Origin: Pseudomonadota bacterium
GTDB lineage: Bacteria > Desulfobacterota > Binatia > UBA1149
Length of the DNA: 47,602 bases
Assembly: GCA_014382245.1 (NCBI GenBank)
Contig: JACNKC010000038.1
Location: 1-47,602 of the forward strand
Direction of reading: 5' to 3'
Each line of letters begins with the position of its first letter. The first letter of the stretch is position 1. Of this stretch, positions 10,623-44,437 are shown one piece after another. A program made the position numbers and the translations under genes. The notes below the pieces were generated by a model. That model saw only the letters and a program-made list of their open reading frames with translations. It was not told the origin of the DNA and did not search any database.

Positions 10623-10626
10623 GGTT

Positions 10627-11700: not shown

Positions 11701-11823
11701 CGGCGGTTTCTCTGTAAACCGGCCTACTACGGGCCACTCGCAGCCGATTGTATCACGGCGTGGCGGGTGGTTCGGCTGGCGGGCCTTGCAACTAGTGGTA
11801 CAGATACTACTCTCACTGGCGTA

Positions 11824-12180
11824 GTGGCAAGCCGGGGCGACGACAAGGATATCGAGCAACTGTTTTACGACGGCTGTGACCTGCACGGCGAGCGTCGCTA
11901 TGACGAGGCCATGGCCTGCTTCGAGGCTTGTCTCGAAGTAGACCCTTACTACCGCGACGCACTGCTTGGAAAGGCCATGGTGTACATGGAGCGCGGCGAG
12001 ATGGATGACGCCATCAACGTGGCGCTGCGCCTGGTTGAACTCGACCCCACCGACATACTGGCGCAGACCAACCTGTCGATGTTTTACCAGAGGGCGGGTC
12101 GTATCGAGGAGGCCGAGGCCGCGGGCGCGGCGGCGAAAATGCTGGACTGGAAGCGTCAGCTGTCGGGCGAAGAAGACTGA
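11824..12180 (+). CDS. Small TPR-repeat protein
   Basis: A 118-residue cytoplasmic protein made of tetratricopeptide repeats: DIEQLFYDGCDLHGERRYDEAMACFEACLEVDP, YRDALLGKAMVYMERGEMDDAINVALRLVELDP (each split by typical TPR positions W/L-G-Y-A-P), and TDILAQTNLSMFYQRAGRIEEAEAAG. Such repeats mediate protein-protein contacts. The start is probably GTG 11824 (VASRGDDKD); the frame runs further upstream, but that part overlaps the divergent LuxE-like gene and lacks TPR character. A small unknown gene follows 27 bases downstream in the same direction. No specific partner can be named. Confidence 0.75.
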   Translation: MASRGDDKDIEQLFYDGCDLHGERRYDEAMACFEACLEVDPYYRDALLGKAMVYMERGEMDDAINVALRLVELDPTDILAQTNLSMFYQRAGRIEEAEAAGAAAKMLDWKRQLSGEED

Positions 12181-13820: not shown

Positions 13821-14828
13821 GTGGGAGGGGCTTTCGCTATCTATCTGCAGGCAAAACATTCCTTTCTAACAGTCCAGGTATTGATCGCGCTGCTGTTGCT
13901 GCCGGCCTTTGCCTGGTCGGCCACCGTGGCAGGCGGTGGCAGCAAGAAGACCGACTGCATGGTCGTGCTCGATGCGCCCGGAGCCAACCACCCCGCTCCG
14001 CCCAAGACCCCCCGCGGCGCGAAGTGCTACGACGGCGACCTGTCCTGCGACGCCGACGGCCTGCGCAACGGTCGTTGCGAGTTTGAGCTGTCGGTGTGTC
14101 TCAATTCCAGCGCGCTGTCGCAGTGCAGCCCCGTGCAGGTAGACGAAGTAGAAATCGACCACGCGATCGACGACGGTGATCCCAGGTTCGACGTAGATTT
14201 CCAGGCCCTGCAATCGAGAGTAGACCTGCTCGCTTTTCCGGGCAACGACATCGTCGATGAGTGCACGCTCACCAGCAGCATCAACGTGCCCTTGCGTGGC
14301 CCCAACAGTTCGGACCGCATGCGCGCGGGACGCAAGAAGCTCAAGCTTTCGGCAGAGGGCAGCACCGCCGCTGGCACCCGGCGCGATCGCGATCGGGTCA
14401 AGTTCAAGTGCCTGCCCGAGGGCGACAAGATCTACGAGCCGCTCGATCTCTACGACGGCACCTTTGATCGCATAGCCACCCAGGTTTTCGCCGCGTCGTG
14501 CGCGGTGTCGGCCTGCCATGATTCAGAAAGCAATGCAGGCGGCCTGACACTGTTGCCCAACGCGGCATACTCGCAGCTGGTGGGAGTTGCGCCCACCAAC
14601 ACCGCGGCAGCCATTGCCGGTTTGCTCAGGGTGACGGCCGGCGACCCCGACGCGAGTTTTCTTTATCTCAAGGTCACGCACGACCTCGCGGCCGGCTACG
14701 GGATTGGCATGCCGCTGGGCAAGGGCATGATCGACGGCGAGTTGCAGGAGATCATACGCCTGTGGGTACTGGGCGACGGAGTGCTGGGACCCGCGCCACA
14801 GGCGGGTTGGGTAGAGGGTACGTGGTGA
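13821..14828 (+). CDS. Secreted C-x4-CH protein with lineage-type N-terminal module
   Basis: A 335-residue exported protein from GTG 13821, with a hydrophobic signal segment (FLTVQVLIALLLLPAFAWSA). Residues about 45-210 form a module also seen at 36214 and 38444 in this window: KTDC, CYDGDLSCDADG, CEFELSVCL, then KKLKL and DRVKFKC. The C-terminal part has C227-AVSA-C232-H233 followed by AGGLTL-type residues, GDPDASFLYLK and MPLGKG. That order resembles small c-type cytochrome domains with a widened C-x4-CH motif and a Met ligand. Heme binding is inferred, not shown. It precedes the DUF1800 and DUF1501 genes in one orientation and probably one operon. Confidence 0.75.
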   Translation: MGGAFAIYLQAKHSFLTVQVLIALLLLPAFAWSATVAGGGSKKTDCMVVLDAPGANHPAPPKTPRGAKCYDGDLSCDADGLRNGRCEFELSVCLNSSALSQCSPVQVDEVEIDHAIDDGDPRFDVDFQALQSRVDLLAFPGNDIVDECTLTSSINVPLRGPNSSDRMRAGRKKLKLSAEGSTAAGTRRDRDRVKFKCLPEGDKIYEPLDLYDGTFDRIATQVFAASCAVSACHDSESNAGGLTLLPNAAYSQLVGVAPTNTAAAIAGLLRVTAGDPDASFLYLKVTHDLAAGYGIGMPLGKGMIDGELQEIIRLWVLGDGVLGPAPQAGWVEGTW

Positions 14829-14889
14829 AGCAGTGCTCGACAATGGCACGCGGGACGGCGCGTGCGGGCAGGCTGAAAGGAGAACGACG

Positions 14890-16425
14890 ATGGCGGTAGC
14901 ATGGACCAGGGACAACGCGGCCCATCTTCTCAGGAGGGCTACTTTCGGAGCCCCCTCGGCGGAGATAGACAAGTTCTTTGATCGACACGTGTCGATCGAC
15001 GACGCGGTGGACGACCTGCTGTCGTTCAAGCCCAGCAAGAGAAAACCTCCCCCGGTAAAGGACAACAGCAGTGATGATAAGCTCAAGATACAACGATGGT
15101 GGACCAAGCAGATGGCCAGGCAGCGCAAGCCTGATAAGGCCTGCCTCGAAAAGCTCGTCCTGTTCTGGCACACGCACCTGGTAAGCGGCGGCGGCCCGCT
15201 CAATCATTTCGGTTGGCTGTCGTACCAGCAGCGGCTGTTCAGGCTCAACGCCGGGGGCAACTTCAGGTTTCTCGTGCGCGAGTTCAATCGCGACCCCGCC
15301 AACATGTACTACCTCGATGGCATCAAGAACAAGGCCAGCGATGACGGCGTGCACGTCAGCGCCAACGAGAACTTCGGGCGCGAGTTGATGGAGTTGTTTA
15401 CGCTCGGGGTATTCGAGCTTGCCGATGACGGCAGCCCCGACACCCAGAAGCCCACTTACACCGAGGACGACGTGCACGGCATGGCGCGTGCGCTCACCGG
15501 TTGGACGAAGGTCGACAAGATCGACGGTACTTACAAGGGCGTGTTCAATTCCAACCACTGGGACGGCGGCCAGTACGACGACGACGGCGATGATCTGCCC
15601 GACCCGATGGTGATCTTCGGGCAGGTGAGCAATGACTTCAAGATAGGCGAGGAGGTTGCCGGCACCTCCGACGACGTGCTGGAGCTCATTTTCTCGCGCA
15701 CCGACGACGCCGGCAACAACCAGGTGGCGATGTTCCTTGCCAGCCGGCTTTGGAATTTTTATGCCTACCCCCCACCCGGGCCGAGCCTGAAGACCCTGCT
15801 GGCCGGTTTCGCTGCGGAATTTGCCAACTCGGATTTTGAGATCAAGCCCTTGCTCAAGGCCATCTGGACCAGCGACGAGTTCTACAGCGATCGTGCGCGC
15901 ACACGCCGCGTGAAAAGCCCCGTGGATTTTGTCATCGGTGCCATGCGTTCTCTCAACGCCAAGGGCAACGGCCGGGAGATCGGCGATTCGCCCGACGAGA
16001 TGGGCGGGCTCATGGGCGAGATGGGAATGGACCTCTTTTTTCCGCCCAACGTGGCCGGCTGGCCGAGCGGCCTGGGTTGGATCAACAGTGGCACCTTGCT
16101 GCAGCGTTTCAATTTTGCACGCTACCTGGCCTCGGCCAGCAGGGGGCCGGCGCGCTTGAAGCTCAAGCGTATAAAGACGCTTCCGTGGAAAGACCCGGCG
16201 GCCGACCCCGGGGTGGTGCTCGACGCGCTGACGTACGAGCTCGGGCTCGACTCGGGCCCGCTGGCGTTCACCACGGGGCAGCGCGACTCGCTGATCGACT
16301 ACCTTACCGACAGCGGCGCGCAGGCAACGCTGGATCTTTCGACCGACGATACCGATGACGTGAACACCAAGGTACGCGGCGTACTCTCGCTGCTGCTGCA
16401 GACGGCCGAATACCAGGTCGGGTGA
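14890..16425 (+). CDS. DUF1800 family protein
   Basis: A 511-residue DUF1800 protein. Family hallmarks are AWTRDNAAHLLRRATFG at the N-terminus, KLVLFWHTHLV, NENFGRELMELFTLGV, DDVHGMARALTGW, and the C-terminal FFPPNVAGWPSGLGWIN. Function of the family is unknown; genes usually sit beside a DUF1501 gene, as here, and products are often exported with the partner. ATG 14890 follows an AAAGGAGAACGACG ribosome site, better than any upstream start. No clear signal peptide is visible at this start, so export with the Tat-targeted partner is a guess. Confidence 0.92.
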   Translation: MAVAWTRDNAAHLLRRATFGAPSAEIDKFFDRHVSIDDAVDDLLSFKPSKRKPPPVKDNSSDDKLKIQRWWTKQMARQRKPDKACLEKLVLFWHTHLVSGGGPLNHFGWLSYQQRLFRLNAGGNFRFLVREFNRDPANMYYLDGIKNKASDDGVHVSANENFGRELMELFTLGVFELADDGSPDTQKPTYTEDDVHGMARALTGWTKVDKIDGTYKGVFNSNHWDGGQYDDDGDDLPDPMVIFGQVSNDFKIGEEVAGTSDDVLELIFSRTDDAGNNQVAMFLASRLWNFYAYPPPGPSLKTLLAGFAAEFANSDFEIKPLLKAIWTSDEFYSDRARTRRVKSPVDFVIGAMRSLNAKGNGREIGDSPDEMGGLMGEMGMDLFFPPNVAGWPSGLGWINSGTLLQRFNFARYLASASRGPARLKLKRIKTLPWKDPAADPGVVLDALTYELGLDSGPLAFTTGQRDSLIDYLTDSGAQATLDLSTDDTDDVNTKVRGVLSLLLQTAEYQVG

Positions 16426-16437
16426 GGAGAAACAGCG

Positions 16438-17946
16438 ATGGCACCGTTTACAAGGAGACAGTTCATCAAGCGCAGTGCTGCTGCGGCTGCCGCTGCGGCG
16501 CTGCCGTGGTCGCGCGTATTGCCGGGCACAGGCGTCAGCTACGCGGCCGGCCCGGGCGACGCGATAGTGGTTTTTGTACAGCTCAACGGCGGCAATGACG
16601 GCCTCAACACCGTGTACCCGCTCGGTGGCAGCCAGCGCAGCAACTACACCCAGTTTCGTCCGACCCTGGCCCTGCCCGACACCCAGGCCGGTCTCACGCC
16701 TTGGGCGGGCGAGGGCTTCAGCGTGTCCGACGTGCTCGATATCGGCGTCAACGACGACGGCAACAACTACGCGTTTCACCCGGTGATGGGCGCCATGGAG
16801 GGCCTCTACCAGCAGGGCGACCTCGCGGTGATCAACGGCGTGCACTACCCCTTTGCCAACCACTCTCACTTTCGCAGCGAGGACATCTGGTACAACCTCG
16901 ACCCGATCGGTACGGGCAACGGCGGCTGGTTTGGCAGCTACCTCGACTGGGCGGGTTTCATTGGCACCGACGTGCCTTGCCTCAACATGGGGTCGTCGGT
17001 CAACCCGGCTTTCTCGCCCACCGATACCAGCGTGCTGGCCATCAAGAAGCTTTCGGAACTCGATTTTCCAGCTACGGGCGAGAAGTCGCTCAAGAAGGAT
17101 ACGGTGTTCGACCTGTACACCGCCAGCGGCCTGGCCGACCCTGCGCTTTACCCGGAGCTGGCCTCCATGGGCAATACCGGCGCGGCCACGATCAACAAGA
17201 TGGAAGAGTACTACCTGCCGGGCAACGGCCTGGCCAATGCCGGCAAGGTGGAGGCCTTGATGTTGTCGAGCTCGGGCAAGTACAACAGGAACAACGACCT
17301 GGTGTACGCCTCGGCGCTGAACAGCGACGTTAACCCCGAGGTGGCCTACGGTGGCGGCCTGGCCCGTGACCTGAGGCACGTGGCGGCCACCATTCGCTCG
17401 GACGTGGGCGCGCGCTTCTTCCACGTGCAGACCGGCGGGTTCGACACCCACGCGAGCCAGGAGAACGGGTTCTTCCACTCCTACCTGCTCAAAAAGGTGT
17501 CCGAGTCGCTGGTGGGATTTTACCAGGACATGGCCTCGGTGGTCACCATGCCGTCGGGATACACGGGTTACCTCGAGAGCAGTCTCATCGACAAGGTTCT
17601 CATCGTGGTCTGGTCCGAGTTCGGTCGTACCATTCGCCAGAACGCCTACGGCGCGGGCAGCGCGGGCACCGATCACGCCACTTCGGCGCCGGTTTTCGTG
17701 GCGGGCGGCTCAACCATCGGCGGCCAGTACGGGGTCTACCCGCAGCTGGACAACCCCGGCGTAGAGAACGAGGACGACCTGCGCATGACCTACGACTTTC
17801 GCGACGTGTTCGGCACCGTGATGGAAAACTGGCTCAACGTGCCGGCGGCCCAGCTTGTGCCCGGCGGAGCCTTGTTGCCGGCCACCGCCGCCACCGACCC
17901 CGACGGCGACAGCTACACCGCCTACAATTCTATCGGGTTCCTCTAG
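16438..17946 (+). CDS. DUF1501 family protein, Tat-exported
   Basis: A 502-residue DUF1501 protein, distantly related to the sulfatase/alkaline phosphatase fold. The N-terminus carries a twin-arginine signal (RRQFIKRSAAAAAAAALPW), so it is exported folded. Family segments are VVFVQLNGGNDGLNTVYPL, FHPVMGAMEGLYQQGDLAVI, FFHVQTGGFDTHASQENGF, VWSEFGRTIRQN and GTDHATSAPVFVAGG. The pair with DUF1800 lies 12 bases apart. Its stop at 17946 overlaps the end of a truncated GST gene on the other strand, a possible rearrangement junction. Confidence 0.93.
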   Translation: MAPFTRRQFIKRSAAAAAAAALPWSRVLPGTGVSYAAGPGDAIVVFVQLNGGNDGLNTVYPLGGSQRSNYTQFRPTLALPDTQAGLTPWAGEGFSVSDVLDIGVNDDGNNYAFHPVMGAMEGLYQQGDLAVINGVHYPFANHSHFRSEDIWYNLDPIGTGNGGWFGSYLDWAGFIGTDVPCLNMGSSVNPAFSPTDTSVLAIKKLSELDFPATGEKSLKKDTVFDLYTASGLADPALYPELASMGNTGAATINKMEEYYLPGNGLANAGKVEALMLSSSGKYNRNNDLVYASALNSDVNPEVAYGGGLARDLRHVAATIRSDVGARFFHVQTGGFDTHASQENGFFHSYLLKKVSESLVGFYQDMASVVTMPSGYTGYLESSLIDKVLIVVWSEFGRTIRQNAYGAGSAGTDHATSAPVFVAGGSTIGGQYGVYPQLDNPGVENEDDLRMTYDFRDVFGTVMENWLNVPAAQLVPGGALLPATAATDPDGDSYTAYNSIGFL

Positions 17947-31944: not shown

Positions 31945-32099
31945 AGCGGGTCACTTTTCCGTAACAAGGATACAGACGGGAACTCTTTCCGGACACCGAA
32001 AAAGGGGGAATGCCTCGTGGGCGCATCGTGTGCCGACGGGCTTCCATTGGTGTCCATTTACAGACAACTGACCAGTTTGCCACGGCGGAGCCGCGACTC

Positions 32100-33848
32100 A
32101 TGTCTGATGAACATCACGAAGAATTGAGCTGGGTACGAAAATACGTTTTTTCGACCGACCACAAGGTCATCGGCATGCAATACGGCGTTACTGCGCTGCT
32201 ATTCCTGTTTTTCGGGTTCTGCCTGATGATGCTGATGAGGTGGCAGCTGGCCTACCCGGGCGAGCCCATCCCCCTGATCGGTTCGCTTTTCAGCGACGCC
32301 ACCGCGCCGGGCGGCGTCATGCTGCCGGAGTTTTACAACCAGCTGGGCGCCATGCACGGAACCATAATGGTGTTCCTGGGCGTGGTTCCGCTGGCCGTAG
32401 GCGCCTTTGGCAACTACGTCATGCCGCTGCAGATCGGCGCGCCCGATATGGCGTTTCCCAAGCTGAACATGGCCAGCTACTGGGTCTATTTTATCGGTGG
32501 CGCGGTAATGCTCGCCAGCTTTTTCGTTCCCGGCGGAGCGGCCCAGTCGGGCTGGACCTCCTACCCGCCGCTGTCCAACCTGGCCTCGGAGGGGCAGACC
32601 TGGTGGGTCGTGGGAATGATCTTTCTCATCGCCTCGTCGCTGCTGGGTTCGGTCAACTTCATCGTGACTATCCTGCACCTGCGCGCCCCGGGCATGTCGA
32701 TGTTCCGCCTGCCGATCTTCGTGTGGTCGCAGCTTGTCACCTCGTTCCTGCTGCTGCTGGCCTTTCCGGCCCTGCAGGCCGCGGGCACCCTGCAGCTGAT
32801 GGACAGGGTGTTCGGGTCGAGCTTCTTCCTGCCCTCGGGGCTGGTGGTTGGCGGCGAAGTGCTGGCCGTCAGTGGCGGTGGCAGCCCGCTGCTCTGGCAG
32901 CACCTGTTCTGGTTCCTGGCCCACCCCGAGGTCTACGTGCTCATCCTGCCGGCGCTGGGTATAGTGGCCGAGGTCATCGCCACCAACACCCGCAAGCCCC
33001 CGTGGGGATACCGCTCGCTCGTGTACTCGATGATCTTCCTGGGCTTCATGTCCTTCATCGTGTGGGCTCACCACATGTACATGACCGGCATGGGCACCAC
33101 CATGAGTAATTTCTTTCAGACCACGACCATGATCATTTCGATTCCGTCGGTGGTCATCCTCACCGCGATGGTCATTTCGTTGTGGGGTGGAGCCATACGC
33201 TTCACGGTGCCGATGCTGTTTGCCTTGGCCTTCCTGCCCATGTTCGGCATAGGCGGGCTCACCGGCCTGCCGCTGGGACTGGCCACGCCTGACATCCACC
33301 TGCACGACACCTACTACGTGATCGGCCACTTTCACTACGTGGTGGCGCCGGGGACGATCTTTGCCCTGTTTGCCGGCGTGTACCATTGGTTTCCAAAGAT
33401 CACCGGCCGGCAGATGAACCAGACCCTGGGCAAGCTGCACTTCTGGACGTCGTTGGTGTTCATCAACGGTGTGTTCATGCCGATGTTCTGGCAGGGCATG
33501 GCCGGCGTGTCGCGCCGCTTGTACGACCAGACCTTCTACGCCCACGGCGCCGCGGTGCAGGACCTGACCATCATATCGTCGGTGAGCGCGTGGCTGCTGG
33601 GGCTCGCCCAGCTGTTCTTCATCGTCAACTTCTTCCGCAGTATTTTTGCGGGACCCAAGGTCGAGGACGACAACCCGTGGCAGGCCACCACGCTTGAGTG
33701 GGCCACGCCCACGCCGCCACCTCACGGTAACTTTCCGGTGACGCCCACCGTTTACCGCGGACCCTACGAGTACAGCCAGCCGGGTGTAGAAGCCGACTTC
33801 ACGCCACAGGATGTAGCCGACGCCAAGATGACCGCGGGCAAGGCCTGA
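32100..33848 (+). CDS. coxA: Cytochrome c oxidase subunit I (heme-copper oxidase)
   Basis: The catalytic subunit of an aa3-type oxidase, with 12 or more membrane helices in 582 residues. The binuclear-centre motif HPEVY (275-279, including Glu277 and the His-Tyr pair), the CuB histidines H324-H325 and HDTYYVIGHFHYVV are present. D-channel residues GNY, Asp116 and Asn123 (GAPDMAFPKLN) are conserved. By ungapped alignment from WAHHMY with the Paracoccus enzyme, the K-channel Lys354 is Ile353, Ser291 is Ala290 and Thr351 is Ser350 here. ATG 32100 follows GGCGGAG and matches the family N-terminus. First gene of the operon; order is I-III-IV-x-x-II. Confidence 0.96.
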   Translation: MSDEHHEELSWVRKYVFSTDHKVIGMQYGVTALLFLFFGFCLMMLMRWQLAYPGEPIPLIGSLFSDATAPGGVMLPEFYNQLGAMHGTIMVFLGVVPLAVGAFGNYVMPLQIGAPDMAFPKLNMASYWVYFIGGAVMLASFFVPGGAAQSGWTSYPPLSNLASEGQTWWVVGMIFLIASSLLGSVNFIVTILHLRAPGMSMFRLPIFVWSQLVTSFLLLLAFPALQAAGTLQLMDRVFGSSFFLPSGLVVGGEVLAVSGGGSPLLWQHLFWFLAHPEVYVLILPALGIVAEVIATNTRKPPWGYRSLVYSMIFLGFMSFIVWAHHMYMTGMGTTMSNFFQTTTMIISIPSVVILTAMVISLWGGAIRFTVPMLFALAFLPMFGIGGLTGLPLGLATPDIHLHDTYYVIGHFHYVVAPGTIFALFAGVYHWFPKITGRQMNQTLGKLHFWTSLVFINGVFMPMFWQGMAGVSRRLYDQTFYAHGAAVQDLTIISSVSAWLLGLAQLFFIVNFFRSIFAGPKVEDDNPWQATTLEWATPTPPPHGNFPVTPTVYRGPYEYSQPGVEADFTPQDVADAKMTAGKA

Positions 33849-33867
33849 GCGAGGAAGGAGATAATCG

Positions 33868-34458
33868 ATGGAAATTCCTCACGTCGTTGAAGTTCACCCG
33901 GAAACGGGCTTAGCCAACGCCAAGTTGGGCTTGTGGTTGTTCCTGGCATCGGAAGTCATGCTGTTCGGTGCCCTGTTTTCGTCGTACATCCTGCTGCGCG
34001 TAGCCGCGGTGGAGTGGCCGGCAGGCTCCACGATACTCAACGTGCCCATGGCGACCTTCAACACCCTGGTGCTTATCGCGTCGTCGGTGACGGTGGTCAT
34101 GTCGTGGGCTTCGCTGAAGATGAACGACTTTGCCAAGTACAAGGTCTACATGGGCATCACCATCGCGTGCGCCTTCATCTTCCTGATCGTCAAGTACTTT
34201 GAGTACACGGCCAAGTTTGACCACGGGCTTTCGCCGGCCAGCAGTACCTTCCTGGCCATCTACTTTACGATCACCGGGCTGCACGCCATTCATATTCTCG
34301 GTGGCATCGTGGTCAACGGCTACCTGCTGGGCCCCGGCGCCCGCATGTGGAAAACAGACCCCGAGCAGTTTACCGGCCGTGTCGAGGCAGCCGGACTGTA
34401 CTGGCACTTTGTTGACCTGGTCTGGATCTTCCTCTTTCCCGTACTGTACCTGCTGTAG
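33868..34458 (+). CDS. coxC: Cytochrome c oxidase subunit III
   Basis: A 196-residue, five-helix subunit III: LGLWLFLASEVMLFGALFSS (the W-x-F-x-x-x-E-x-M-x-F signature), VMSWASLKMNDFAKYKVY, FTITGLHAIHILGGIVVNGY (with the conserved H-x-x-H) and the final AGLYWHFVDLVWIFLFPVLY. It is the short, bacterial form without the first two helices. Located 19 bases after coxA with a GAGGAAGGAGA ribosome site. Confidence 0.95.
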   Translation: MEIPHVVEVHPETGLANAKLGLWLFLASEVMLFGALFSSYILLRVAAVEWPAGSTILNVPMATFNTLVLIASSVTVVMSWASLKMNDFAKYKVYMGITIACAFIFLIVKYFEYTAKFDHGLSPASSTFLAIYFTITGLHAIHILGGIVVNGYLLGPGARMWKTDPEQFTGRVEAAGLYWHFVDLVWIFLFPVLYLL

Positions 34459-34478
34459 ACGACAACTTTCAGGAGACG

Positions 34479-34859
34479 ATGATGTCAGCACATGCCGAAG
34501 ACATTCAGGCCCACGTAAGAACCTACGTCGTGGTGTTCGCGGTACTGGCCGCCCTCACGGTAGTCACCGTGGCGGTGTCCTATCTCGACCTGTCAACGCC
34601 CATGGCCATAGCCGTGGCACTGCTGGTGGCCTGCACCAAGGGAGCCCTGGTGGCGCTTTTCTTCATGCACCTGCTCGATGAAAAGAAGATCATCTACGCT
34701 TTGCTGGCGTTGTCGGTGATCTTTTTTGCCATGTGCCTGTCGATACCCACCGAGTGGCACTCGGGGCTGATCAGGTCCGACTCGGTCTGGAGCAGCACCG
34801 GTGCCGGTGCCGGTGCACACGGAGAAAGCGCCCACGACGATCACGGCGGGGGCCACTGA
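34479..34859 (+). CDS. Cytochrome c oxidase subunit IV (prokaryotic, small)
   Basis: A 126-residue protein with three membrane helices (TYVVVFAVLAALTVVTVAVS, then AIAVALLVACTKGALVALFF, then IIYALLALSVIFFAMCLSI), matching the prokaryotic subunit IV/CyoD-like group, including the K-x-x-L-V-x-x-F-F-M-H-L pattern of helix two. The C-terminus is Gly/His-rich (AHGESAHDDHGGGH), which might bind metal; that is speculative. ATG 34479 is followed by another ATG. It lies 20 bases after coxC. Confidence 0.88.
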   Translation: MMSAHAEDIQAHVRTYVVVFAVLAALTVVTVAVSYLDLSTPMAIAVALLVACTKGALVALFFMHLLDEKKIIYALLALSVIFFAMCLSIPTEWHSGLIRSDSVWSSTGAGAGAHGESAHDDHGGGH

Positions 34860-34863
34860 CTCG

Positions 34864-35070
34864 GTGTCACTGAAGGCCTTCCACGTTTTTTTCGTGTCGG
34901 TTTCCATCCTCCTGTTCAGCTGGATCGGTTGGGGCCGGGCGTCGGTGTACGGCGACACGGGGCAGGCGACGGCCCTGCTGCTGTCGATCGCTTCTTTCGG
35001 TTTCGCCGCGCTGCTGGTCGTTTATGGCGGCTACGTGCTGCGTAAGTTGCGGGGGATCAGCTACCTGTGA
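34864..35070 (+). CDS. Small two-helix membrane protein of the cox operon
   Basis: A 68-residue protein from GTG 34864, with two membrane helices (SLKAFHVFFVSVSILLFSWI, and ALLLSIASFGFAALLVVYGG) and a basic C-terminus (YVLRKLRGISYL). The frame is open to 34801, but that part overlaps the subunit IV tail and looks unlike a protein start. Position between subunit IV and the CSVCFG protein, with a 4-base GTGA overlap at its stop, indicates an oxidase accessory or extra subunit. No named family can be given from memory. Confidence 0.7.
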   Translation: MSLKAFHVFFVSVSILLFSWIGWGRASVYGDTGQATALLLSIASFGFAALLVVYGGYVLRKLRGISYL

Positions 35071-35345
35071 AGAAACCGCGCCGTCGTCGTAGCCTTACTG
35101 TACGCGTTGGGTTGGCCCTGCCGGGCGCTCTCGCGCTGTTGCTGGCCGGGGCTCTGCCGGCCGTGGCCTGCTCGGTGTGTTTCGGTGACCCGGAGTCGCC
35201 GCAGGCCCAGGGAATGAACTCGGCGATACTTTTTCTCATGGGGGTGATCGGCTCGGTGCTGGCCGCTTTCGCTTCGATGTTTGTTTACTGGGTGGCACGC
35301 TCGCGGCGCGTGACTGCTGCTGATCACCAGGGAATAGGGCTCTGA
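35067..35345 (+). CDS. Small membrane protein with CSVCFG motif
   Basis: A 92-residue protein starting at GTG 35067. It has an Arg-rich N-terminus, a signal-like helix ending at AVA (ALPGALALLLAGALPAVA), then directly the motif CSVCFGDPESPQAQGMN, a second helix (AILFLMGVIGSVLAAFASMF), and a short tail. The C-x2-C at the mature N-terminus could bind a metal such as copper or be a disulfide. I recall similar proteins beside oxidase genes in other phyla, but not a name. The position directly before coxB suggests a role in the oxidase, perhaps in CuA or subunit II assembly. Confidence 0.75.
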   Translation: MKKPRRRRSLTVRVGLALPGALALLLAGALPAVACSVCFGDPESPQAQGMNSAILFLMGVIGSVLAAFASMFVYWVARSRRVTAADHQGIGL

Positions 35346-35363
35346 GAAGGGCGGAGTAAAGAT

Positions 35364-36134
35364 ATGGAAAACGTAATGTATGGGTGGTGGTTGCCGCCGG
35401 ACGTATCGACGCACGGTCACCAGATCGATTTCATCATAAACTTCCTGCACTGGTTCATGCTGGTCTTGTTCGTGGGCTGGGGCGTTTTCATGGCAATCGC
35501 GTTGGTAAAGTTCCGCGCGAGGCCGGGCCACAAGGCCGACCCCAGCGGGGTGACGTCCCACCTGTCCACCTACATGGAGATCGGCGTAGCCGTGATCGAG
35601 GTCATACTGCTCGTGGGCCTGTCGATCCCGACCTGGGCAGAGCAGAAATCGGAACCCCCGGCCGAAGACGAGGTGGGCCTTGTCGTGCGCGCGGTCGGCG
35701 AACAGTTCGCCTGGAACTTTCACTACCCCGGGCCTGACGGCAGGTTCGGCCGCACCGACGTGGAGCTGGTGGACGGCGGTAACCCGCTGGGGCTGGACAG
35801 CAAGGATCCGGCTGCTGCCGACGACATTACCACCATCAACCAGTTTCATTTTCCCGTAGGCGAAAAGGTGCTGTTGTACCTGAGCTCCAAGGACGTCATC
35901 CACTCGTTCTCCCTTCCCGTGATGCGCGTCAAGCAGGACGCCATACCGGGCATGACCGTGCCCCTGTGGTTTGAGGCCACCGAGACCGGTTCCTTCGAGG
36001 TGGGCTGTGCCCAGCTCTGTGGCCTGGGCCACTACCGCATGAAGGGCTACATGACCATAGACACGGCCGAGTCTTTTGCCGCCTGGATGAAAGAACAGGC
36101 CGAACTGGCTTCCTTCGAGGACGACTACTACTAG
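35364..36134 (+). CDS. coxB: Cytochrome c oxidase subunit II (CuA subunit)
   Basis: A 256-residue subunit II that accepts electrons from cytochrome c. Two N-terminal membrane helices (IDFIINFLHWFMLVLFVGWG and IGVAVIEVILLVGLSIPTW) are followed by a cupredoxin domain with EQFAWNFHYPGPDG, SSKDVIHSFSLP and the CuA loop GCAQLCGLGHYRMKG (C-x3-C-x3-H-x2-M plus the upstream His). No cytochrome c domain is fused. The Glu of the helix-two MEI is kept, while the usual W-T-x-x-P after it is altered (VAVIE). It is the last gene of the operon, an unusual place for subunit II. Confidence 0.95.
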   Translation: MENVMYGWWLPPDVSTHGHQIDFIINFLHWFMLVLFVGWGVFMAIALVKFRARPGHKADPSGVTSHLSTYMEIGVAVIEVILLVGLSIPTWAEQKSEPPAEDEVGLVVRAVGEQFAWNFHYPGPDGRFGRTDVELVDGGNPLGLDSKDPAAADDITTINQFHFPVGEKVLLYLSSKDVIHSFSLPVMRVKQDAIPGMTVPLWFEATETGSFEVGCAQLCGLGHYRMKGYMTIDTAESFAAWMKEQAELASFEDDYY

Positions 36135-36164: not shown

Positions 36165-36194
36165 TTGACAATAGCCTGGCCGACGTGGTCGTAT
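36165..36194 (+). promoter_or_regulatory. Candidate promoter of the propeller gene
   Basis: A perfect TTGACA at 36165-36170 is followed, after 18 bases, by TCGTAT (36189-36194), a weak -10. It lies between coxB and the propeller gene, so the latter may be transcribed on its own. Confidence 0.3.
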
Positions 36195-36213
36195 GGCCGC
36201 TTGGAGGAAGCCC

Positions 36214-38220
36214 ATGAGACTTTTTGTCCAGCTTGCACTGGCGCTGTTTTTTTCGTGTTCGTTTGCGCTGGCTGATTGCCCGCCGAGTTGTGAGCTCACC
36301 GGCGGCAATGATCCAGTGACCGACTGCTACGGTGAGTACGCGGCGGCGGGCGTGAAGCTCAACTACCCGTTCTTCGACCCGGCCAAGCCGCGACCTGCCA
36401 AGGAAATTCGTTGCTTTGACGGCGACCCCGGTTGCGATCTGGACGGCGAGGCAGACGGCGCCTGCACCTTCGACGTTGATCTCTGCCTGCGCAATGACGA
36501 TCCGGCGCTTCCGTCCTGCGTGGTAGCCGACATAAGCGAGGTCAAGGTTGCCGGCACCGGCAGCCTGCCCGGGCTGCAATCGTTGCAGGATTCTGTGAAC
36601 GCGCTGCTGCCTGCCGTTGCCAACGTGTGCACCGACGGCGAGCAGATCGTGTTGCCACTCAAGGTCAAGAAGGGCGGCGTGCTCAAGCGCAGCAAGAAGG
36701 TTGTCAAGGCGACCGCCACCGGGCCGGCGGGCAAGGATAAAAACAAGCTCAAGCTTTCGTGTATCCCGCACGGCTGGCCCACCCACGGTTACAGCCGCCG
36801 CAACGACAGGGCGAGCAGCCTCGAGACCACTCTCAACCCGGTCAACGCACACGCCATCGAGGCGGGCTGGACCTTCGCCGTGGCCGGTGCAAGCGGCAGC
36901 AAGGGAGTGACGTCTACGCCCACGGTCGACAGCAAGCTGGTGTTTGCCAGTTCGTGGAACGGGAAGGTCTACGGGCTGAGCCGCAAGACCGGGAAGGTGA
37001 AGTGGGACTACGACACCGGCTCTGCCGGGGTGCTCGGAGTCCAGAGTTCGGTAACGCTTACCGCGGACGGGCGCGCGGTGGTGGGCGACAGCATGGCCAA
37101 CGTTCATTGCCTCGCCGCAAAGAAGGGCAAGCCGCTGTGGACAGCCAACGTGGGCGACCCGGTGACCGAGGCTGCCCACGTCTGGGGCTCGCCGGTGGTG
37201 GCAAACAACCGCGTGTTCGTGGGCCGTTCGTCGCACGGGGACCAGCCCTGCACGCAGGGACACATGTACGCCTTTGACCTCGACACCGGCGCAGAGCTGT
37301 GGCGCTACGCCACCGTACCGGCGGCGATCTGTTTTGCCGACACCTCCGAAGAGTGCACGGTCGACGCCGACTGCAGCGTGCAGGCGGGTAGTACCTGCGA
37401 CGTGGCCGAGGGTACCTGCGAGAGGGCCTCGTCGGTAGCCTGTACGGTTGACGCCGACTGCCCGAGCTGCGTGGCCGGCGTAGGCGGAGGAGTGACCGCC
37501 GGCGTGGCGGTGAGCGCCGACGGCGAGACCATCTACATGGCCTCGGTGGGCTGTTATACCGCCCCGTCTATAGGCAACTCTGACGCCATATTTTCCTTGA
37601 ACGCCGCTGACGGCGCTGTCAACTGGATACACCGCACGCAGTCGATCGAGCAATTCGACGACGGTCCGTTTTTTCACGACTACGGTTTCCTTAACGGACC
37701 GATCCTTGCCGAGGTAGACGACGGCCTGGGGGGCACACAGCCGCTGGTCATAGCCGGGGGCAAGGACGGCACACTGTACGCCGTGGACCGTGATACCGGC
37801 GTGCTGCTGTGGTCAAACGAATTGGCCCCGGCGCCGGAGTTTGCTGCATTCGGCCTGTTCAACGGCGCCATGGGCTTTGCCGATGGGCGCTTGTTTGCAA
37901 CGCTGTTCCAGACCGTGAACTGGCCCTCTTCGAACGATCACCTGTACGCCTTCAGCGCCCAGGACGGCAGCGTGGCCTGGTCAGACGACATAGGCGCGAG
38001 CTGGGGACACGTGGGGCTGGCCAACGGCTTGTTGCTCGCCGGCACCCAGCAGGCAGCCGAACTCTACGTTTACGATACCGACACAGGGCTGCGCCTGAAT
38101 ACGCTGCCCGCTTTTGACAGCGTGGCGTCCGGGCCGTCGATCGTCGACGGCACTGTGTACGTTGGCTACGGCGTATTCGGCGGCACCGGCGGCGTGATGA
38201 GCTTTGCCCTGCTGCCCTGA
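36214..38220 (+). CDS. Secreted PQQ-type beta-propeller protein with Cys-rich insert
   Basis: A 668-residue exported protein. ATG 36214 follows TTGGAGGAAG and starts a signal peptide (MRLFVQLALALFFSC to FALA). Residues about 20-190 are the same Cys module as at 13821 and 38444 (CFDGDPGCDLDG, ACTFDVDLCL, DKNKLKLSC). The rest is a propeller of PQQ-type blades, for example LVFASSWNGKVYGLSRKTG, MYAFDLDTGAELWRY and TLYAVDRDTGVLLWSNE. The HDYGFLNGPIL segment resembles PQQ-dependent polyvinyl-alcohol-type dehydrogenases. A Cys-rich insert (CTVDADCSVQAGSTC ... CTVDADCPSC) interrupts it. It could be a quinoprotein dehydrogenase or a binding-only propeller. Confidence 0.8.
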   Translation: MRLFVQLALALFFSCSFALADCPPSCELTGGNDPVTDCYGEYAAAGVKLNYPFFDPAKPRPAKEIRCFDGDPGCDLDGEADGACTFDVDLCLRNDDPALPSCVVADISEVKVAGTGSLPGLQSLQDSVNALLPAVANVCTDGEQIVLPLKVKKGGVLKRSKKVVKATATGPAGKDKNKLKLSCIPHGWPTHGYSRRNDRASSLETTLNPVNAHAIEAGWTFAVAGASGSKGVTSTPTVDSKLVFASSWNGKVYGLSRKTGKVKWDYDTGSAGVLGVQSSVTLTADGRAVVGDSMANVHCLAAKKGKPLWTANVGDPVTEAAHVWGSPVVANNRVFVGRSSHGDQPCTQGHMYAFDLDTGAELWRYATVPAAICFADTSEECTVDADCSVQAGSTCDVAEGTCERASSVACTVDADCPSCVAGVGGGVTAGVAVSADGETIYMASVGCYTAPSIGNSDAIFSLNAADGAVNWIHRTQSIEQFDDGPFFHDYGFLNGPILAEVDDGLGGTQPLVIAGGKDGTLYAVDRDTGVLLWSNELAPAPEFAAFGLFNGAMGFADGRLFATLFQTVNWPSSNDHLYAFSAQDGSVAWSDDIGASWGHVGLANGLLLAGTQQAAELYVYDTDTGLRLNTLPAFDSVASGPSIVDGTVYVGYGVFGGTGGVMSFALLP

Positions 38221-38443: not shown

Positions 38444-40573
38444 GTGGTCAACGATCGCAAGACTTTAGTATTCGCCGCGCTGCTGCCCTTTCTTTTTGCC
38501 TGGCTCGCGCTCACCAGCGGCGCGGCCTGGGCCCACGACGATCCCAGCAACGACGGACTGATAGACGGCGGCGGCAGCTACAAGACCGACTGCGTGTCCA
38601 AGTTCCAGACGGGCCTTGAGCTCAACTACCCGGCCTCTCCGAAGAAGGCCAAGGAGCTCGCCTGTATTGACGGTGACCTTTCCTGCGACACTGACGGCGC
38701 CATCGACGGAAGCTGTACTTTCAGCGTCGGGTTGTGCCTGGCCGACGACGAGGAAACCGCCTTGTGCCTGCCCGCGGGCGTGCCCGTGGGCGGAGTTGAA
38801 ATAAAGAACAAACCGCTCGGCCACAAAAAATACGACGCCGACATGCAGGCGCTGCAGGACGAGGTGGACCTGTTGCTGGGTTCTACCGGCGTTGCCTGCG
38901 ACAACCCGGGCGCGGGTGGCGGCAACTGCTTTACCTGCACGGCTGCCCAGGTGGGCATAACCACCCCGTTGTCGGAGAAGAAAGGCCGCAAAAAGGTCAA
39001 GGTCAAGGTGACCACCGAGCCCGGTGGCCTGAAGAACAAACCCATCAAGGACAAGGACAAGCTCAAATTGCGCTGTATCGAGTGCGAGGCCGCCGGCACC
39101 TTTGAGCACATAAGCGACATTGTTTTCAAGCAGGGCTGCGCGTTTACCGGCGTGTGCCACACCGGTCCTGCTGCCGCTGCCGGACTGAACCTCGACCCCG
39201 ACCAGGCAGGTGGGCTCGACGCGCTCTACGACGAACTGGTTATCGAGGCCGCAACAGCGTCCGGCGCTTCGGCGCTCGGCATGGCGAGAATCATGCCCGG
39301 TGACACTAACCTCGGCACGGCGCTGTCATCCAGCCTGCTCTACGAAAAATTGCTCAAGACGGCCAGCGAGCTTGACCAGCTGTGTACCGACGGTGGCCAG
39401 CTGGCCGCTTGCCTGGGCGGCAACATGCCTCCTGGCTCTGATGTTTATTCAACCGGCAAGCTCGACCTGCTGCAGACCTGGATAGAGGCCGGCGCGCCGC
39501 GCGACGGCTGGGTAGCCGGCGCCAGCTGTGGCGAGCCCGAGGATATATGGACGCCGCTGGATCCCCCCGCGGCGCCTGCTCCCGGAGAGGGCTTCCAGGT
39601 GCACATGCCGGCACCCGCTGGTTTCACAGTAGAGCCGGGTACCGAGTTTGAAGGCTGCCAGTGGATAGAGATGCCCTCCGGCGTGACCGACACCTGGTAC
39701 ATCGATCGCGTGGAGCTTCACGCCAACTCGGGCACCCACCACATTATCTTGTGGGAACCCACCAACTCGGCGTCGGGCTACGCGACTTCGTTTGATCCGG
39801 GCGATTCTCTTTGTGCTAAGAAGCAGTCGGAGTTCGGCGTGCCGCTAAGCTTTCGCATTGGCTTCCAGGACGCGTCGACCGAGCTGCAGTTGCCCGCCAA
39901 CGTGAGCTACACCATGGAGCCTGGCAAGGTGTTTGGCTTCAACCCTCACTACACCAACCCGTTTAACGTGCCCATCTATCCCGAGGTGTGGGTCAACTTT
40001 TACGGTTCTACGACTCCGACGGTGGTGGAGGGAGAAGACATATTCCCGGGTGATACTGGATTCCAGGTACCCCCGGGTACCAAGGGTACCGGCAACCTCA
40101 CGAGCTACACCAATAACACGGGCGTAGGCCAGTGTTACTACTCCCTGGGTTCGCACTCGCACCGTCGCAACACCGGGTTCAAGATCTGGACCAGTCAACC
40201 GTCAAGCTGGGCCGACGCCGGTGACCTGATCTACCACAGTACCGACTGGGATCACCCGGTGGTACTGGAGCCCTCGCCCAGGTACTATCTCGCGCCCGGC
40301 GCCAAGTTGTGGTTCCAGTGCGAGTGGGACAACGGGGTGCTGGTCGACGTGAACAGGCGCTGCCGTACCCTGTCGGATTCGGGCGACGGACCGGGGCAGT
40401 GCGCGTTCCTCAACGACAAGGTCTGCATAACCGACACCGACTGCGGCGTGGGCACTTTCGGCTACTGTCGTGATTGCAACATCGACTTCGGTTTCCTGGC
40501 CGAGGACGAGATGTGCTTCATGCCGGGCCTGTACTACGACGCTCAGCCCGGCCCGGATCCCTGCCCGTACTAG
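38444..40573 (+). CDS. Secreted copper type II monooxygenase-like protein with C-x5-CH motif
   Basis: A 709-residue exported protein from GTG 38444 behind CTGGAGGAC. After a signal peptide (to AWA-HDD) come the shared Cys module (KTDC, CIDGDLSCDTDG, CTFSVGLCL, KDKLKLRC; about 45-225), then C232-AFTGV-C238-H239 with a following MPG and MPPG, a possible cytochrome-like domain. The C-terminal half resembles the two-domain copper type II, ascorbate-dependent monooxygenase fold (PHM/DBH). Candidate CuH ligands are H432-H433 and H502 (NPHY); candidate CuM ligands are H571-x-H573 (GSHSHRR) and M690 (EDEMCFM). A Cys-rich insert (KVCITDTDCGVGTFGYC) precedes M690. Substrate unknown. It stands alone between hairpin repeats. 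Confidence 0.75.
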   Translation: MVNDRKTLVFAALLPFLFAWLALTSGAAWAHDDPSNDGLIDGGGSYKTDCVSKFQTGLELNYPASPKKAKELACIDGDLSCDTDGAIDGSCTFSVGLCLADDEETALCLPAGVPVGGVEIKNKPLGHKKYDADMQALQDEVDLLLGSTGVACDNPGAGGGNCFTCTAAQVGITTPLSEKKGRKKVKVKVTTEPGGLKNKPIKDKDKLKLRCIECEAAGTFEHISDIVFKQGCAFTGVCHTGPAAAAGLNLDPDQAGGLDALYDELVIEAATASGASALGMARIMPGDTNLGTALSSSLLYEKLLKTASELDQLCTDGGQLAACLGGNMPPGSDVYSTGKLDLLQTWIEAGAPRDGWVAGASCGEPEDIWTPLDPPAAPAPGEGFQVHMPAPAGFTVEPGTEFEGCQWIEMPSGVTDTWYIDRVELHANSGTHHIILWEPTNSASGYATSFDPGDSLCAKKQSEFGVPLSFRIGFQDASTELQLPANVSYTMEPGKVFGFNPHYTNPFNVPIYPEVWVNFYGSTTPTVVEGEDIFPGDTGFQVPPGTKGTGNLTSYTNNTGVGQCYYSLGSHSHRRNTGFKIWTSQPSSWADAGDLIYHSTDWDHPVVLEPSPRYYLAPGAKLWFQCEWDNGVLVDVNRRCRTLSDSGDGPGQCAFLNDKVCITDTDCGVGTFGYCRDCNIDFGFLAEDEMCFMPGLYYDAQPGPDPCPY

Positions 40574-40730: not shown

Positions 40731-41597
40731 CTAGTTGTCGGGCGCGCCCGAGTTGATCCAGGAACGCACGCCGTCGCGGAATTCCTGGGTCAGGGTGGGT
40801 ACGAGCGCCACTGGCATGGCGGTGCCGCACCAGGTTTCGCAGGTTCCGGATACGCAGTTGCCGTTGCTCGTGCACAGCAGGGTAGGGTCGTCGCTGCAGC
40901 GCTGGGAGACATCCAAGCCCGACAACGTGCAGTCAGCAGGTGTGGCGGTTACCCAGGGCATGGCGTCCAGCTTGTCCATCAACCAGCTCGCGTCCGCGTC
41001 GCCCGGTTCTACAATATTGAGGCCCGAATGCTCTGAGCTGGCTATACCCACCATGTCGGCGTGGGTCATCAGCACGCAACCACCGAGGGTCGCCAGTTTT
41101 CCCAGGCAGCAGGACGGGCAGGCGGGCACCGTACTCACGGCGTGACAGCCAAGGGAGGATGCGCAGCCACCTGTCAGAATCGGCGCCTGGAAGACGGCGG
41201 CTATCTCGGTCCAGGTTAGTGCGGGTGCTCCCAGGGTGGTGGTCGTGGAGCTGGTCGTGACAGTCGTACTGGTGGTAGTGGTGGTGGGCGGGCCAGGGCA
41301 GGTCAGGGGCACGGGCTGGCCTACGGCGCTTTGCAGGATGCGCAGCGCGTCCGAAGCCGAGGCCGTGCCGCCGTTGTCAGCATCGCAGGTGGTGAGGTCC
41401 ACGGGCTGACTGCCGACAGCCATCTGCAGGCAGTAAAGCGCGTCGGCGCCGGTGACGTTGCCGTCGCCGTTGGGCGGCGGGGCCGGGTCGCCGCAGCCCG
41501 CTGCGGGGGCCTGCAGGGGTAAACCCACAATCAGCAGGCTGGCTGCAATAAGAGAGAAAGCGGCTGCAAGAGCCGTGGATCGAACTGTATTGGTCAT
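40731..41597 (-). CDS. Secreted protein with dockerin-like repeats, Thr linker and C-x5-CH domain
   Basis: A 288-residue exported protein from ATG 41597 (signal MTNTVRSTALAAAFSLIAAS to QAPAA). Residues 43-100 form two dockerin-type segments (GDGNVTGADALYCLQMAVG and DADNGGTASASDALRILQ), which bind calcium in known dockerins. A Thr/Ser linker (about 103-122) leads to a domain with C145-ASSLG-C151-H152, many Cys, GDADASWLMDKL, a Cys-rich CTSNGNCVSGTCETWC and AMPVALVPTL ... VRSWINSGA. The last features parallel the small cytochrome-like domains of three other proteins in this window. Heme binding is not proven. Divergent from the diheme cytochrome gene. Confidence 0.78.
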   Translation of the reverse strand: MTNTVRSTALAAAFSLIAASLLIVGLPLQAPAAGCGDPAPPPNGDGNVTGADALYCLQMAVGSQPVDLTTCDADNGGTASASDALRILQSAVGQPVPLTCPGPPTTTTTSTTVTTSSTTTTLGAPALTWTEIAAVFQAPILTGGCASSLGCHAVSTVPACPSCCLGKLATLGGCVLMTHADMVGIASSEHSGLNIVEPGDADASWLMDKLDAMPWVTATPADCTLSGLDVSQRCSDDPTLLCTSNGNCVSGTCETWCGTAMPVALVPTLTQEFRDGVRSWINSGAPDN

Positions 41598-41638
41598 GGC
41601 TTGTAAGTGGCTGCGGGGAACCGGCAGCTCGCTATCGT

Positions 41639-41660
41639 ATAACCCGTGCACATGGGTTAT
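41639..41660. promoter_or_regulatory. Inverted repeat between divergent genes, operator candidate
   Basis: ATAACCC, eight bases, GGGTTAT is a perfect 7-bp inverted repeat, with GTGCAC in the spacer. It lies 42 bases upstream of the dockerin-like gene and 69 bases upstream of the cytochrome gene, a typical operator position. The regulator is unknown. Confidence 0.4.
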
Positions 41661-42723: not shown

Positions 42724-43929
42724 CTAAAAGAAAAGGTGCATTTCGAGCGTTAGCTCGTCGCGGTTGTGCTGCGGCTGATCCTCGGGCCCGTTGTACACCC
42801 GGTAGAACGCCCGAAGTTGCAGGAAACGATCGATGAAGGGCTCCACGCCCACGCTGACGCGGTTGCGCGTGTCCTCGGCGATGTTGTCGCTGGGGTCGTA
42901 GAAGTCGAAAGCCAGCTTGGCGTTCATCCAGTCGCACAACAGGTAGTTGGCCTCAACGTAACCCGCCCAGGCCTGCACGTCTTCAATTCCCGATCCGTTG
43001 TCCTGCTCGGTGTCGGTGATGTTGGCCTGGGCCAGCAGCGCGAGCGCGCCCCGCGACAGCCCCGTGTAAAGCGCGAAGGTATTGGCTTCCAGGTTGCCCG
43101 GTGAATCGTGCGAAGCCGAGCCGCCCAGCATGGCGTTGGCCACTGGCCCCTCGAGGTCGGTCCACAGGTAGAAGGCGTTGGCGGTCAGCAGCTGGTCGCT
43201 GTCGTTGTCCTCGTTGCCCTCTGAGACCGACACGGCCCAGTTCAGGCCCTCGCCACCGCGGCCCAGCTCTACGCCGGTGACCGAGCGGTCAAAGTTGAAG
43301 CCCGAGGTCGAGTTCACAAAGGCGGTGTCGTCCTGCAGCTTGAGGCCCCAGGCCGGGAAGAACTTGCCGGCCTTGAGGTAAGCGTCTTTCAAGTAGCCGT
43401 CGCCGGGCATGATGCCGTCGGCCAGCAGGAAGGCCTCGCGGTTGTCGGCTCCACCGGGCGCCACGCGCTCGTCTATGTAGGCCGACAGCACGCCGGGCAC
43501 CAGGCGCAGCTCGGCATAGAGCGTGGCCTGCTCGATGTCGATGTCATTGCTCTCCAGGTCGCGGAAGGCGGTGTTGTTTTCGACTTCGCCGTTCAGGTCA
43601 GGGTCGTCCTGGAACAGCAGCCGGTCGACCATGCGCAGGTCGGCGCCCACCGAGAAGTAGTCGTTGATGTTTGGCGAAAACCAGTCGTCGTGCGCGGGCA
43701 GCAGGCCCTGGCCGTCGTTAGGCAGATTGAGGATGTCGACGGCGTGCATCTCGGCGGTGAGCGTGCGCATGCCACCGCCGGTTCGGTTGACGTGGCAGTC
43801 GGCGCAGGAGTAACCACCGCGCAAGGCCATGTAGGGTTCGGCCCGGGCCGGCGTCGACTGTGCGAGCAGTGCTGTTAAGACCAGCAGTGTCGAGGCGAGC
43901 CTCGTGGTGTTGCGCGTGGATGCGAGCAT
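42724..43929 (-). CDS. Outer-membrane beta-barrel-like protein with N-terminal CxxCH
   Basis: A 401-residue exported protein (signal MLASTRNTTRLASTLLVLTA to ARA-EP). The mature N-terminus carries one c-type heme motif, YSCADCHVNRTGGGMRTL, a pattern I know from barrel proteins of electron-transfer systems. The rest alternates in the way of a beta-barrel (ADLRMVDRLLF, ATLYAELRLVPGVLSAYIDE, LNWAVSVSEG, NAFYLWTDL, LQLRAFYRVY) and ends with a terminal Phe (MHLFF), the outer-membrane targeting signature. It could form a porin-cytochrome unit in one chain. Reverse gene, upstream of which lies the C-x4-CH lipoprotein gene, 25 bases away, likely in one operon. Confidence 0.8.
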   Translation of the reverse strand: MLASTRNTTRLASTLLVLTALLAQSTPARAEPYMALRGGYSCADCHVNRTGGGMRTLTAEMHAVDILNLPNDGQGLLPAHDDWFSPNINDYFSVGADLRMVDRLLFQDDPDLNGEVENNTAFRDLESNDIDIEQATLYAELRLVPGVLSAYIDERVAPGGADNREAFLLADGIMPGDGYLKDAYLKAGKFFPAWGLKLQDDTAFVNSTSGFNFDRSVTGVELGRGGEGLNWAVSVSEGNEDNDSDQLLTANAFYLWTDLEGPVANAMLGGSASHDSPGNLEANTFALYTGLSRGALALLAQANITDTEQDNGSGIEDVQAWAGYVEANYLLCDWMNAKLAFDFYDPSDNIAEDTRNRVSVGVEPFIDRFLQLRAFYRVYNGPEDQPQHNRDELTLEMHLFF

Positions 43930-43954: not shown

Positions 43955-44437
43955 TTAGAAGAGCGTGGTCGAAGTGGTCAAGCTGGTAGTGGTAGTCGAG
44001 AGGGGTGGATGGGCTCCTGCCTCTATCCACGAGCGAATCTGTTCGAGCTGTTCGTCGGTGAGTGAGGGCAGGCCGCCTATGTCGGGCATCTGCGCGCCAC
44101 AGCGATCGGTCGATGCACCCACCTTGTCCATGAGGTAGCTCGCGTCCGAGTCATTGGCAACGACCAGGGTGCGACCGGCGCAGAGCGTGGAAGCCGTGTT
44201 GACCAGGCCGGCGTGAGAAGCAGGGACGCTCGACAGGTTGAGCCCCGCCTGCTGTATCACCGCGTCGTGGCAGCCGAACTGCGCACAGCTGGGGGTGAAG
44301 ATCTGTTGCTGTATATCAGCTAGCGACGCGCCGCCCGAAGTGGCCGAGCCGCCCGCGCCCTCGCCGGCGCAGCCCGCGGCCACCAGCATCAACAACAGGG
44401 TAAGCCAGGGGCGGTGCGAGGAAGACGGGTTTTGCAT
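43955..44437 (-). CDS. Lipoprotein with C-x4-CH motif and Thr-rich tail
   Basis: A 160-residue lipoprotein. The lipobox LVAAGC places the lipidated Cys at residue 23. The domain has C51-AQFG-C56-H57, then QQAGLNLSSVPASHAGLVN, ANDSDASYLMDKVG, CGAQMPDIGGLP and LEQIRSWIEAGAHP. This order is shared with the C-x4/5-CH parts of the proteins at 13821, 38444 and 40731. The protein ends in a Ser/Thr tail (LSTTTTSLTTSTTLF). It probably works with the CxxCH barrel protein encoded 25 bases downstream. Binding of heme c is a prediction; normal c-type hemes need C-x2-CH, though C-x4-CH sites are known in some bacteria. Confidence 0.82.
   Translation of the reverse strand: MQNPSSSHRPWLTLLLMLVAAGCAGEGAGGSATSGGASLADIQQQIFTPSCAQFGCHDAVIQQAGLNLSSVPASHAGLVNTASTLCAGRTLVVANDSDASYLMDKVGASTDRCGAQMPDIGGLPSLTDEQLEQIRSWIEAGAHPPLSTTTTSLTTSTTLF

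Follow-up and report, generated by a model that had tools for sequence, protein, structure and literature searches.

Research on copper hydroxylases of the PHM/DBH type has, to our knowledge, dealt almost entirely with animal enzymes that depend on ascorbate. In PHM, ascorbate reduces both coppers, and the ligands of its CuH site are named here as in the same work (PMC6123673). The protein described in the following combines this fold with a cytochrome-c-like domain in a single bacterial polypeptide. It is encoded in a contiguous stretch of 47,602 nucleotides (the window) from a genome of 2.9 Mb and 95 % completeness, whose nearest named relative is UBP10 UBA1149 with 81 % identity. UBP10 corresponds to Candidatus Binatota (PMC8262859), to which the source organism accordingly belongs. 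In the favoured interpretation, the protein is probably a copper monooxygenase with the PHM/DBH fold, located in the periplasm or at the cell surface, and would receive its electrons from its own heme c in place of ascorbate.

The gene (38444-40573, forward strand) encodes a predicted secreted cytochrome c-copper type II monooxygenase fusion of 709 amino acids. It begins with a GTG start codon directly 3' of GGAGG, and orthologues in genomes of the same genus (G001-G003) share 87-91 % identity across the C-terminal half of the protein. Together with the signal peptide, these features indicate that the ORF is real. The residues on which the preliminary description was built (C232-x5-C238-H239, H432-H433, H502, H571-S-H573 and M690) are all found at these numbers in the translation. 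The signal peptide covers residues 1-30 (38444-38533, forward strand) with a predicted cleavage between A30 and H31 (AWA/H31), and the protein is predicted to be exported to the periplasm or the cell surface. The predicted mature N-terminus (38525-38545) starts with a His, following the pattern A-x-A/H-[D/G/E] with cleavage before the His, and the same is seen in the relatives L002, L012, L014, L033, L044, L045, L053, L055 and L056. Among family members with a type I signal, 11 of 26 have such an N-terminal His, compared with 8 of 137 for the remaining exported ORFs; the comparison was made with a crude signal caller, and its p value is inflated by relatedness (Fisher, p=7e-6). In LPMO, PmoB and CopC, an N-terminal His is a hallmark of copper binding.

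The signal peptide is followed by a Cys-rich mobile module (residues 37-212; 38552-39079, forward strand), which was modelled with modest confidence, contains CxDGDxxCDxD and seven invariant Cys residues, and has no match in Pfam. The Cys module noticed beforehand is real, and it recurs in several other proteins of the source genome. It was also found at 13821-14828 and 36193-38220 of the window and in L006, L030 and L035, where its partners are cytochromes, PQQ propellers and copper enzymes.

The catalytic core of the copper type II monooxygenase, a double jelly roll, comprises residues 378-700 (39575-40543, forward strand). Searches of Pfam, NCBIfam and PDB with the 709-aa protein as a single sequence returned nothing useful, and weak Pfam matches such as zf-POGZ were discarded as chance. 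Since single-sequence searches are blind to the core, such genes stay unannotated. The Pfam model Cu2_monoox_C does not match the protein itself, and no gene of the source genome exceeds its cut-off, whereas a profile built from 22 sequences covering residues 378-700 (A2), with relatives gathered by whole-genome searches, recovered rat PHM structures at E=2.7e-11, in an alignment that matches up each of the six copper ligands (HMMER). The missing match is a detection limit of the Pfam model; the physical features of the family are present. Among the relatives, 16 of 39 match Cu2_monoox_C at E<=0.01, and the sister protein L022 lies above the cut-off with 30.9 versus 23 bits.

In the alignment of profile A2 with PHM, H432-H433 (39737-39742) fall on the CuH ligands H107-H108, and H502 (39947-39949), the His of an HY pair, falls on the CuH ligand H172. 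H571-S-H573 (40154-40162) and M690 (40511-40513), which lies in an EMC motif and is replaced by His in one clade, fall on the CuM ligands H242-x-H244 and M314 (all on the forward strand). Each of the residues that had been proposed as PHM-type CuH and CuM ligands is thus aligned with its counterpart. The five His residues are invariant in 22-39 aligned relatives at 20-90 % identity, and therefore their occurrence is not due to chance. Across the homologues examined, the ligand set consists of five His and a Met or His, with the paralogue L054 as the sole exception. L054 is a stand-alone protein in which Q, H, N, N, H and R stand at the positions of the copper ligands, and it is likely a non-copper pseudo-enzyme. 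Between HxH and EMC, a Cys-rich insertion (residues 640-678; 40361-40477, forward strand) is present in some subfamilies only. With a profile from a 39-row alignment spanning the cytochrome-like and copper domains (A3), a single search recovered both halves of the protein, with E-values of 4.5e-9 for PHM, 1.4e-4 for DBH and 2.2e-4 for FoxE.

An AlphaFold2 model built on the 39-row alignment reached a pLDDT of around 90 in the core. The best 31 Foldseek matches of this model were all PHM or DBH, with E-values from 2.3e-14 to 5e-10. In VIA-align, 261 residues were superimposed on PHM at 3.0 Å with Z=20.6, and Z=19.9 was obtained for dopamine beta-hydroxylase. The nearest other fold was PNGase F with Z=8.8, a double-jelly-roll cousin of PHM (PMC8812541). 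A fold unlike PHM had been named beforehand as the result that would contradict the assignment; the model resembles PHM and DBH far more closely than the next fold. At the level of the predicted structure, residues 378-700 are confirmed as a copper type II (PHM/DBH/TBM) monooxygenase fold with CuH and CuM ligand sets, which would be expected to load copper and to be active.

Upstream of the core, residues 216-352 (39089-39499, forward strand) form a cytochrome-c-like domain, which is supported by profile and Pfam matches and, modestly, by structural comparisons. It carries the putative heme-attachment motif C232-x5-C238-H239 (39137-39160, forward strand) and a candidate distal heme ligand, Met328 of an MPP motif (39425-39427, forward strand). 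Both Cys residues, the His and the Met are invariant in 40 domain sequences with 28-89 % identity to the query, a set that takes in three other proteins of the window. The shared pattern of the domain is F..I..IF..GC(x4-5)CH...GGL.L...RV.PGD..S.L..KL...MP.G...WI.AGAP. The motif spacing is x5 in the clade of the window protein and x4 (C-x4-CH) in most relatives, and the canonical CXXCH spacing is not used. Heme c sites seldom have a C-x5-CH spacing. Among shorter variants, CX3CH and CX4CH are counted as heme motifs (PMC10734462). With a profile of the domain (A4), FoxE was recovered at E=2e-6, and weaker matches were obtained to hydrazine synthase alpha and cytochrome c6. The commonest Pfam match was PSCyt1 (16 of 40 members). 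A stand-alone model of the domain is helical with a pLDDT of 90.3, and VIA aligned it to FoxE with Z 7.5 (27 % identity over 99 residues) and to cytochrome c2 with Z 3.2. Foldseek with the domain alone was uninformative (best E 2.0), with cytochrome FoxE again as the top match. Genes for cytochrome c maturation and assembly are present in the source genome. The heme-like C-x5-CH site of the preliminary description can accordingly be placed in a separate cytochrome-c-like domain. Judged by these sequence features, it is probable that residues 216-352 are a c-type cytochrome domain with a non-canonical C-x5-CH motif to which heme would be attached. A common origin of the cytochrome-like and copper domains was considered and is unsupported (hhalign probability 0.2). 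Searches of plasmids yielded matches to the cytochrome domain only, in Novosphingobium.

Matches to the family were found in 45 of 148 genomes of the class; the genome searches covered one phylum, and every match falls in the class of the window. In three genomes for which all candidates were scored, 26, 21 and 26 family segments were counted. Because some genes give two matching segments, these counts exceed the number of genes, and the family comprises roughly 15-25 genes per genome in these three, which suggests many substrates. Both domains are present in 45 of the 58 unique homologues, and among the other 13 are short versions that stand alone and fragments truncated at locus ends. Stand-alone homologues without the cytochrome domain (L037, L028 and L040) indicate that this domain is not strictly required. 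The cytochrome-copper fusion is the rule in the family across the class and not a singleton. The view that such a protein would be unusual was right, though it is a member of a large, class-wide family of fused proteins.

In a maximum-likelihood tree, the window protein falls in a clade that has strong support and contains only members of its order. His takes the place of the CuM Met in ten sequences, which group together in one clade with 100/100 support. In these sequences (L022, L023, L026, L038, L039, L040, L050, L078, L082 and L083), the motif reads NEHCN and not DEMCF, which amounts to a natural CuM site with three His. The copy in UBA1149 (L009 and L010) looks like an assembly chimera of two paralogues, with the N-terminus and the upstream sulfotransferase gene stemming from one and the C-terminus and the downstream genes from the other; the second contig breaks at residue ~148.

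The gene is preceded by the cytochrome c oxidase genes COX1-COX3-COX4-COX2 (32010-36134, forward strand; Pfam) and by a gene for a PQQ-type beta-propeller protein that also carries the Cys module (36193-38220, forward strand; PQQ_2, 3e-32). Based on sequence similarity, COX genes also precede the orthologue in L096 (G002), and COX2 does so in L094 (G003), where the orthologue is separated from the COX2/PQQ genes by another two fused paralogues. In L094 and L087, too, genes for PQQ propellers adjoin members of the family. Among proteins of solved structure, the propeller comes closest to quinohemoprotein alcohol dehydrogenases, to which it aligns in part only. Since it has no counterpart of the vicinal Cys pair of the aligned alcohol dehydrogenase, its dehydrogenase activity is unsure. 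A role as redox partner of the copper protein is possible, and the copper protein might hydroxylate a substrate whose alcohol the propeller would then oxidise.

Further cytochrome-like domains are located in the window at 14451-14819, 40734-41216 and 44009-44341. Downstream on the reverse strand, a cluster of exported cytochrome-like proteins comprises 40731-41651, 42724-43929 and 43955-44437, which are, by type, a C-x5-CH protein with a dockerin-like repeat, a porin-like protein with CADCH and a C-x4-CH lipoprotein. At 13821-17946, a protein with the Cys module and a C-x4-CH cytochrome-like part is followed by DUF1800 and DUF1501 genes. Genes for a LuxC-like acyl-CoA reductase, a LuxE-like acyl-protein synthetase and a class III aminotransferase lie in a row at 8083-11886 on the reverse strand.

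The proposed mechanism starts from computed properties, namely the export signal, the order of the modules, the fold, the ligand sets, the conserved heme motif and the conserved fusion, and extends them to metal and heme loading, the path and direction of the electrons, hydroxylation activity and the substrate. The heme c would be covalently attached and His/Met ligated, and it would be reduced by the periplasmic cytochrome c pool or by the neighbouring PQQ-propeller protein. The cytochrome c pool is suggested as a donor because of the position of the gene behind those for cytochrome c oxidase. Single electrons would then be handed from the heme to the copper sites, CuM would activate O2, and a C-H bond of a probably non-peptide substrate would be hydroxylated. 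The heme would do the job that ascorbate does in the animal enzymes and, by analogy with tethered cytochrome-copper nitrite reductases, a tethered heme c may be a natural replacement for this reductant.

Alternatively, the protein could be a PHM-fold copper enzyme that receives electrons from ascorbate-like reductants or soluble cytochromes, with the cytochrome-like domain acting in docking or persisting as a structural relic whose heme is missing or inactive in redox terms. The stand-alone homologues, the departure of C-x5-CH from CXXCH and the failure of Foldseek to recognise the cytochrome fold confidently are consistent with this. However, a relic would not need the Cys, Cys, His and Met residues that are kept throughout the 40 domain sequences, which makes this explanation unlikely. 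The location after the COX genes and among cytochromes could also point to a dicopper/heme redox protein without monooxygenase activity that serves outward electron transfer or ROS/RNS detoxification beside the cytochrome c oxidase. This is less likely again, given that the two copper sites of PHM are preserved without change, down to the CuM Met, and that 15-25 paralogues per genome suggest a diversification of substrates and not a single redox duty. Moreover, the characterised members of this fold family (PHM, DBH and TBM) are, as far as we know, all monooxygenases. With PHM as the closest solved structure, a genuine bacterial peptidylglycine-amidating enzyme could be considered as well, but it is highly improbable. 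In PHM, R240, N316 and Y318 bind the peptide carboxylate; in the profile alignment they fall on G569, F692 and P694, and their absence makes peptide amidation unlikely. In addition, no lyase domain is present.

If the favoured interpretation, a monooxygenase fed by its own heme c, is extended to the whole family, Binatota would harbour a large and so far undescribed class of dicopper monooxygenases that are self-sufficient and driven by heme c. With 20 or more per genome, these would be wired to the respiratory chain and not to ascorbate, would act on varied environmental C-H substrates outside the cytoplasm, and would include one clade with a CuM Met-to-His exchange. This broader proposal is tentative, and we rate its chance slightly below even. 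Binatota are known for alkane and C1 metabolism. The PHM fold and its copper sites are known. As far as open full text shows, no description exists of the fusion with heme c, of its extent in Binatota or of the clade with a natural Met-to-His change at CuM. No account of bacterial cytochrome-PHM fusions, bacterial PHM homologues, M314H or CX5CH was found in the open full-text literature, and neither peptidylglycine nor ascorbate enzymes come up in the genome paper on Binatota. It is conceivable, if somewhat doubtful, that the fusion is already present in other bacterial phyla under general names. Members of the L022 type pass the Pfam Cu2_monoox_C cut-off, and bacterial proteins from other phyla may be listed under Cu2_monoox_C in Pfam as well; the silence of the literature on such fusions, that of the Binatota paper included, speaks against it. 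If the broader proposal is true, the absorbance of the heme would allow electron delivery to CuH and CuM to be tracked in a tractable bacterial system, and a large pool of oxygenases that are mostly invisible to Pfam would come to light. The natural Met-to-His clade would probe the role of the CuM thioether, which is a long-standing question.

Compared to PHM (PDB 1PHM/1SDW/6ALA), the window protein shares the double jelly roll, the HH/H and HxH/M ligands, the EMC motif and secretion, despite an identity of only about 14 %. In contrast to it, PHM has no cytochrome and uses ascorbate, and the window protein does not keep R240/N316/Y318 and adds the Cys-rich insertion and the N-terminal modules. 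Dopamine beta-hydroxylase (PDB 4ZEL) has the same core and likewise an accessory domain ahead of it. This accessory domain is a DOMON domain and not a C-x5-CH cytochrome, and the enzyme depends on ascorbate. For residues 216-352, the c-type cytochrome FoxE (PDB 5MAB) and PSCyt1/planctomycete cytochrome C (PF07635) provide profile matches and a modest structural match, including the MPxG and WIxxGA motifs, but FoxE has no copper monooxygenase core attached, and the spacing of the heme motif in the window protein is not that of CXXCH. In cytochrome-c-tethered copper nitrite reductases and in pairs of cellobiose dehydrogenase and LPMO, a cytochrome feeds a copper site within the same chain or complex. 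With unrelated folds and different chemistry, these systems are functional analogues only of a copper site supplied by a tethered cytochrome.
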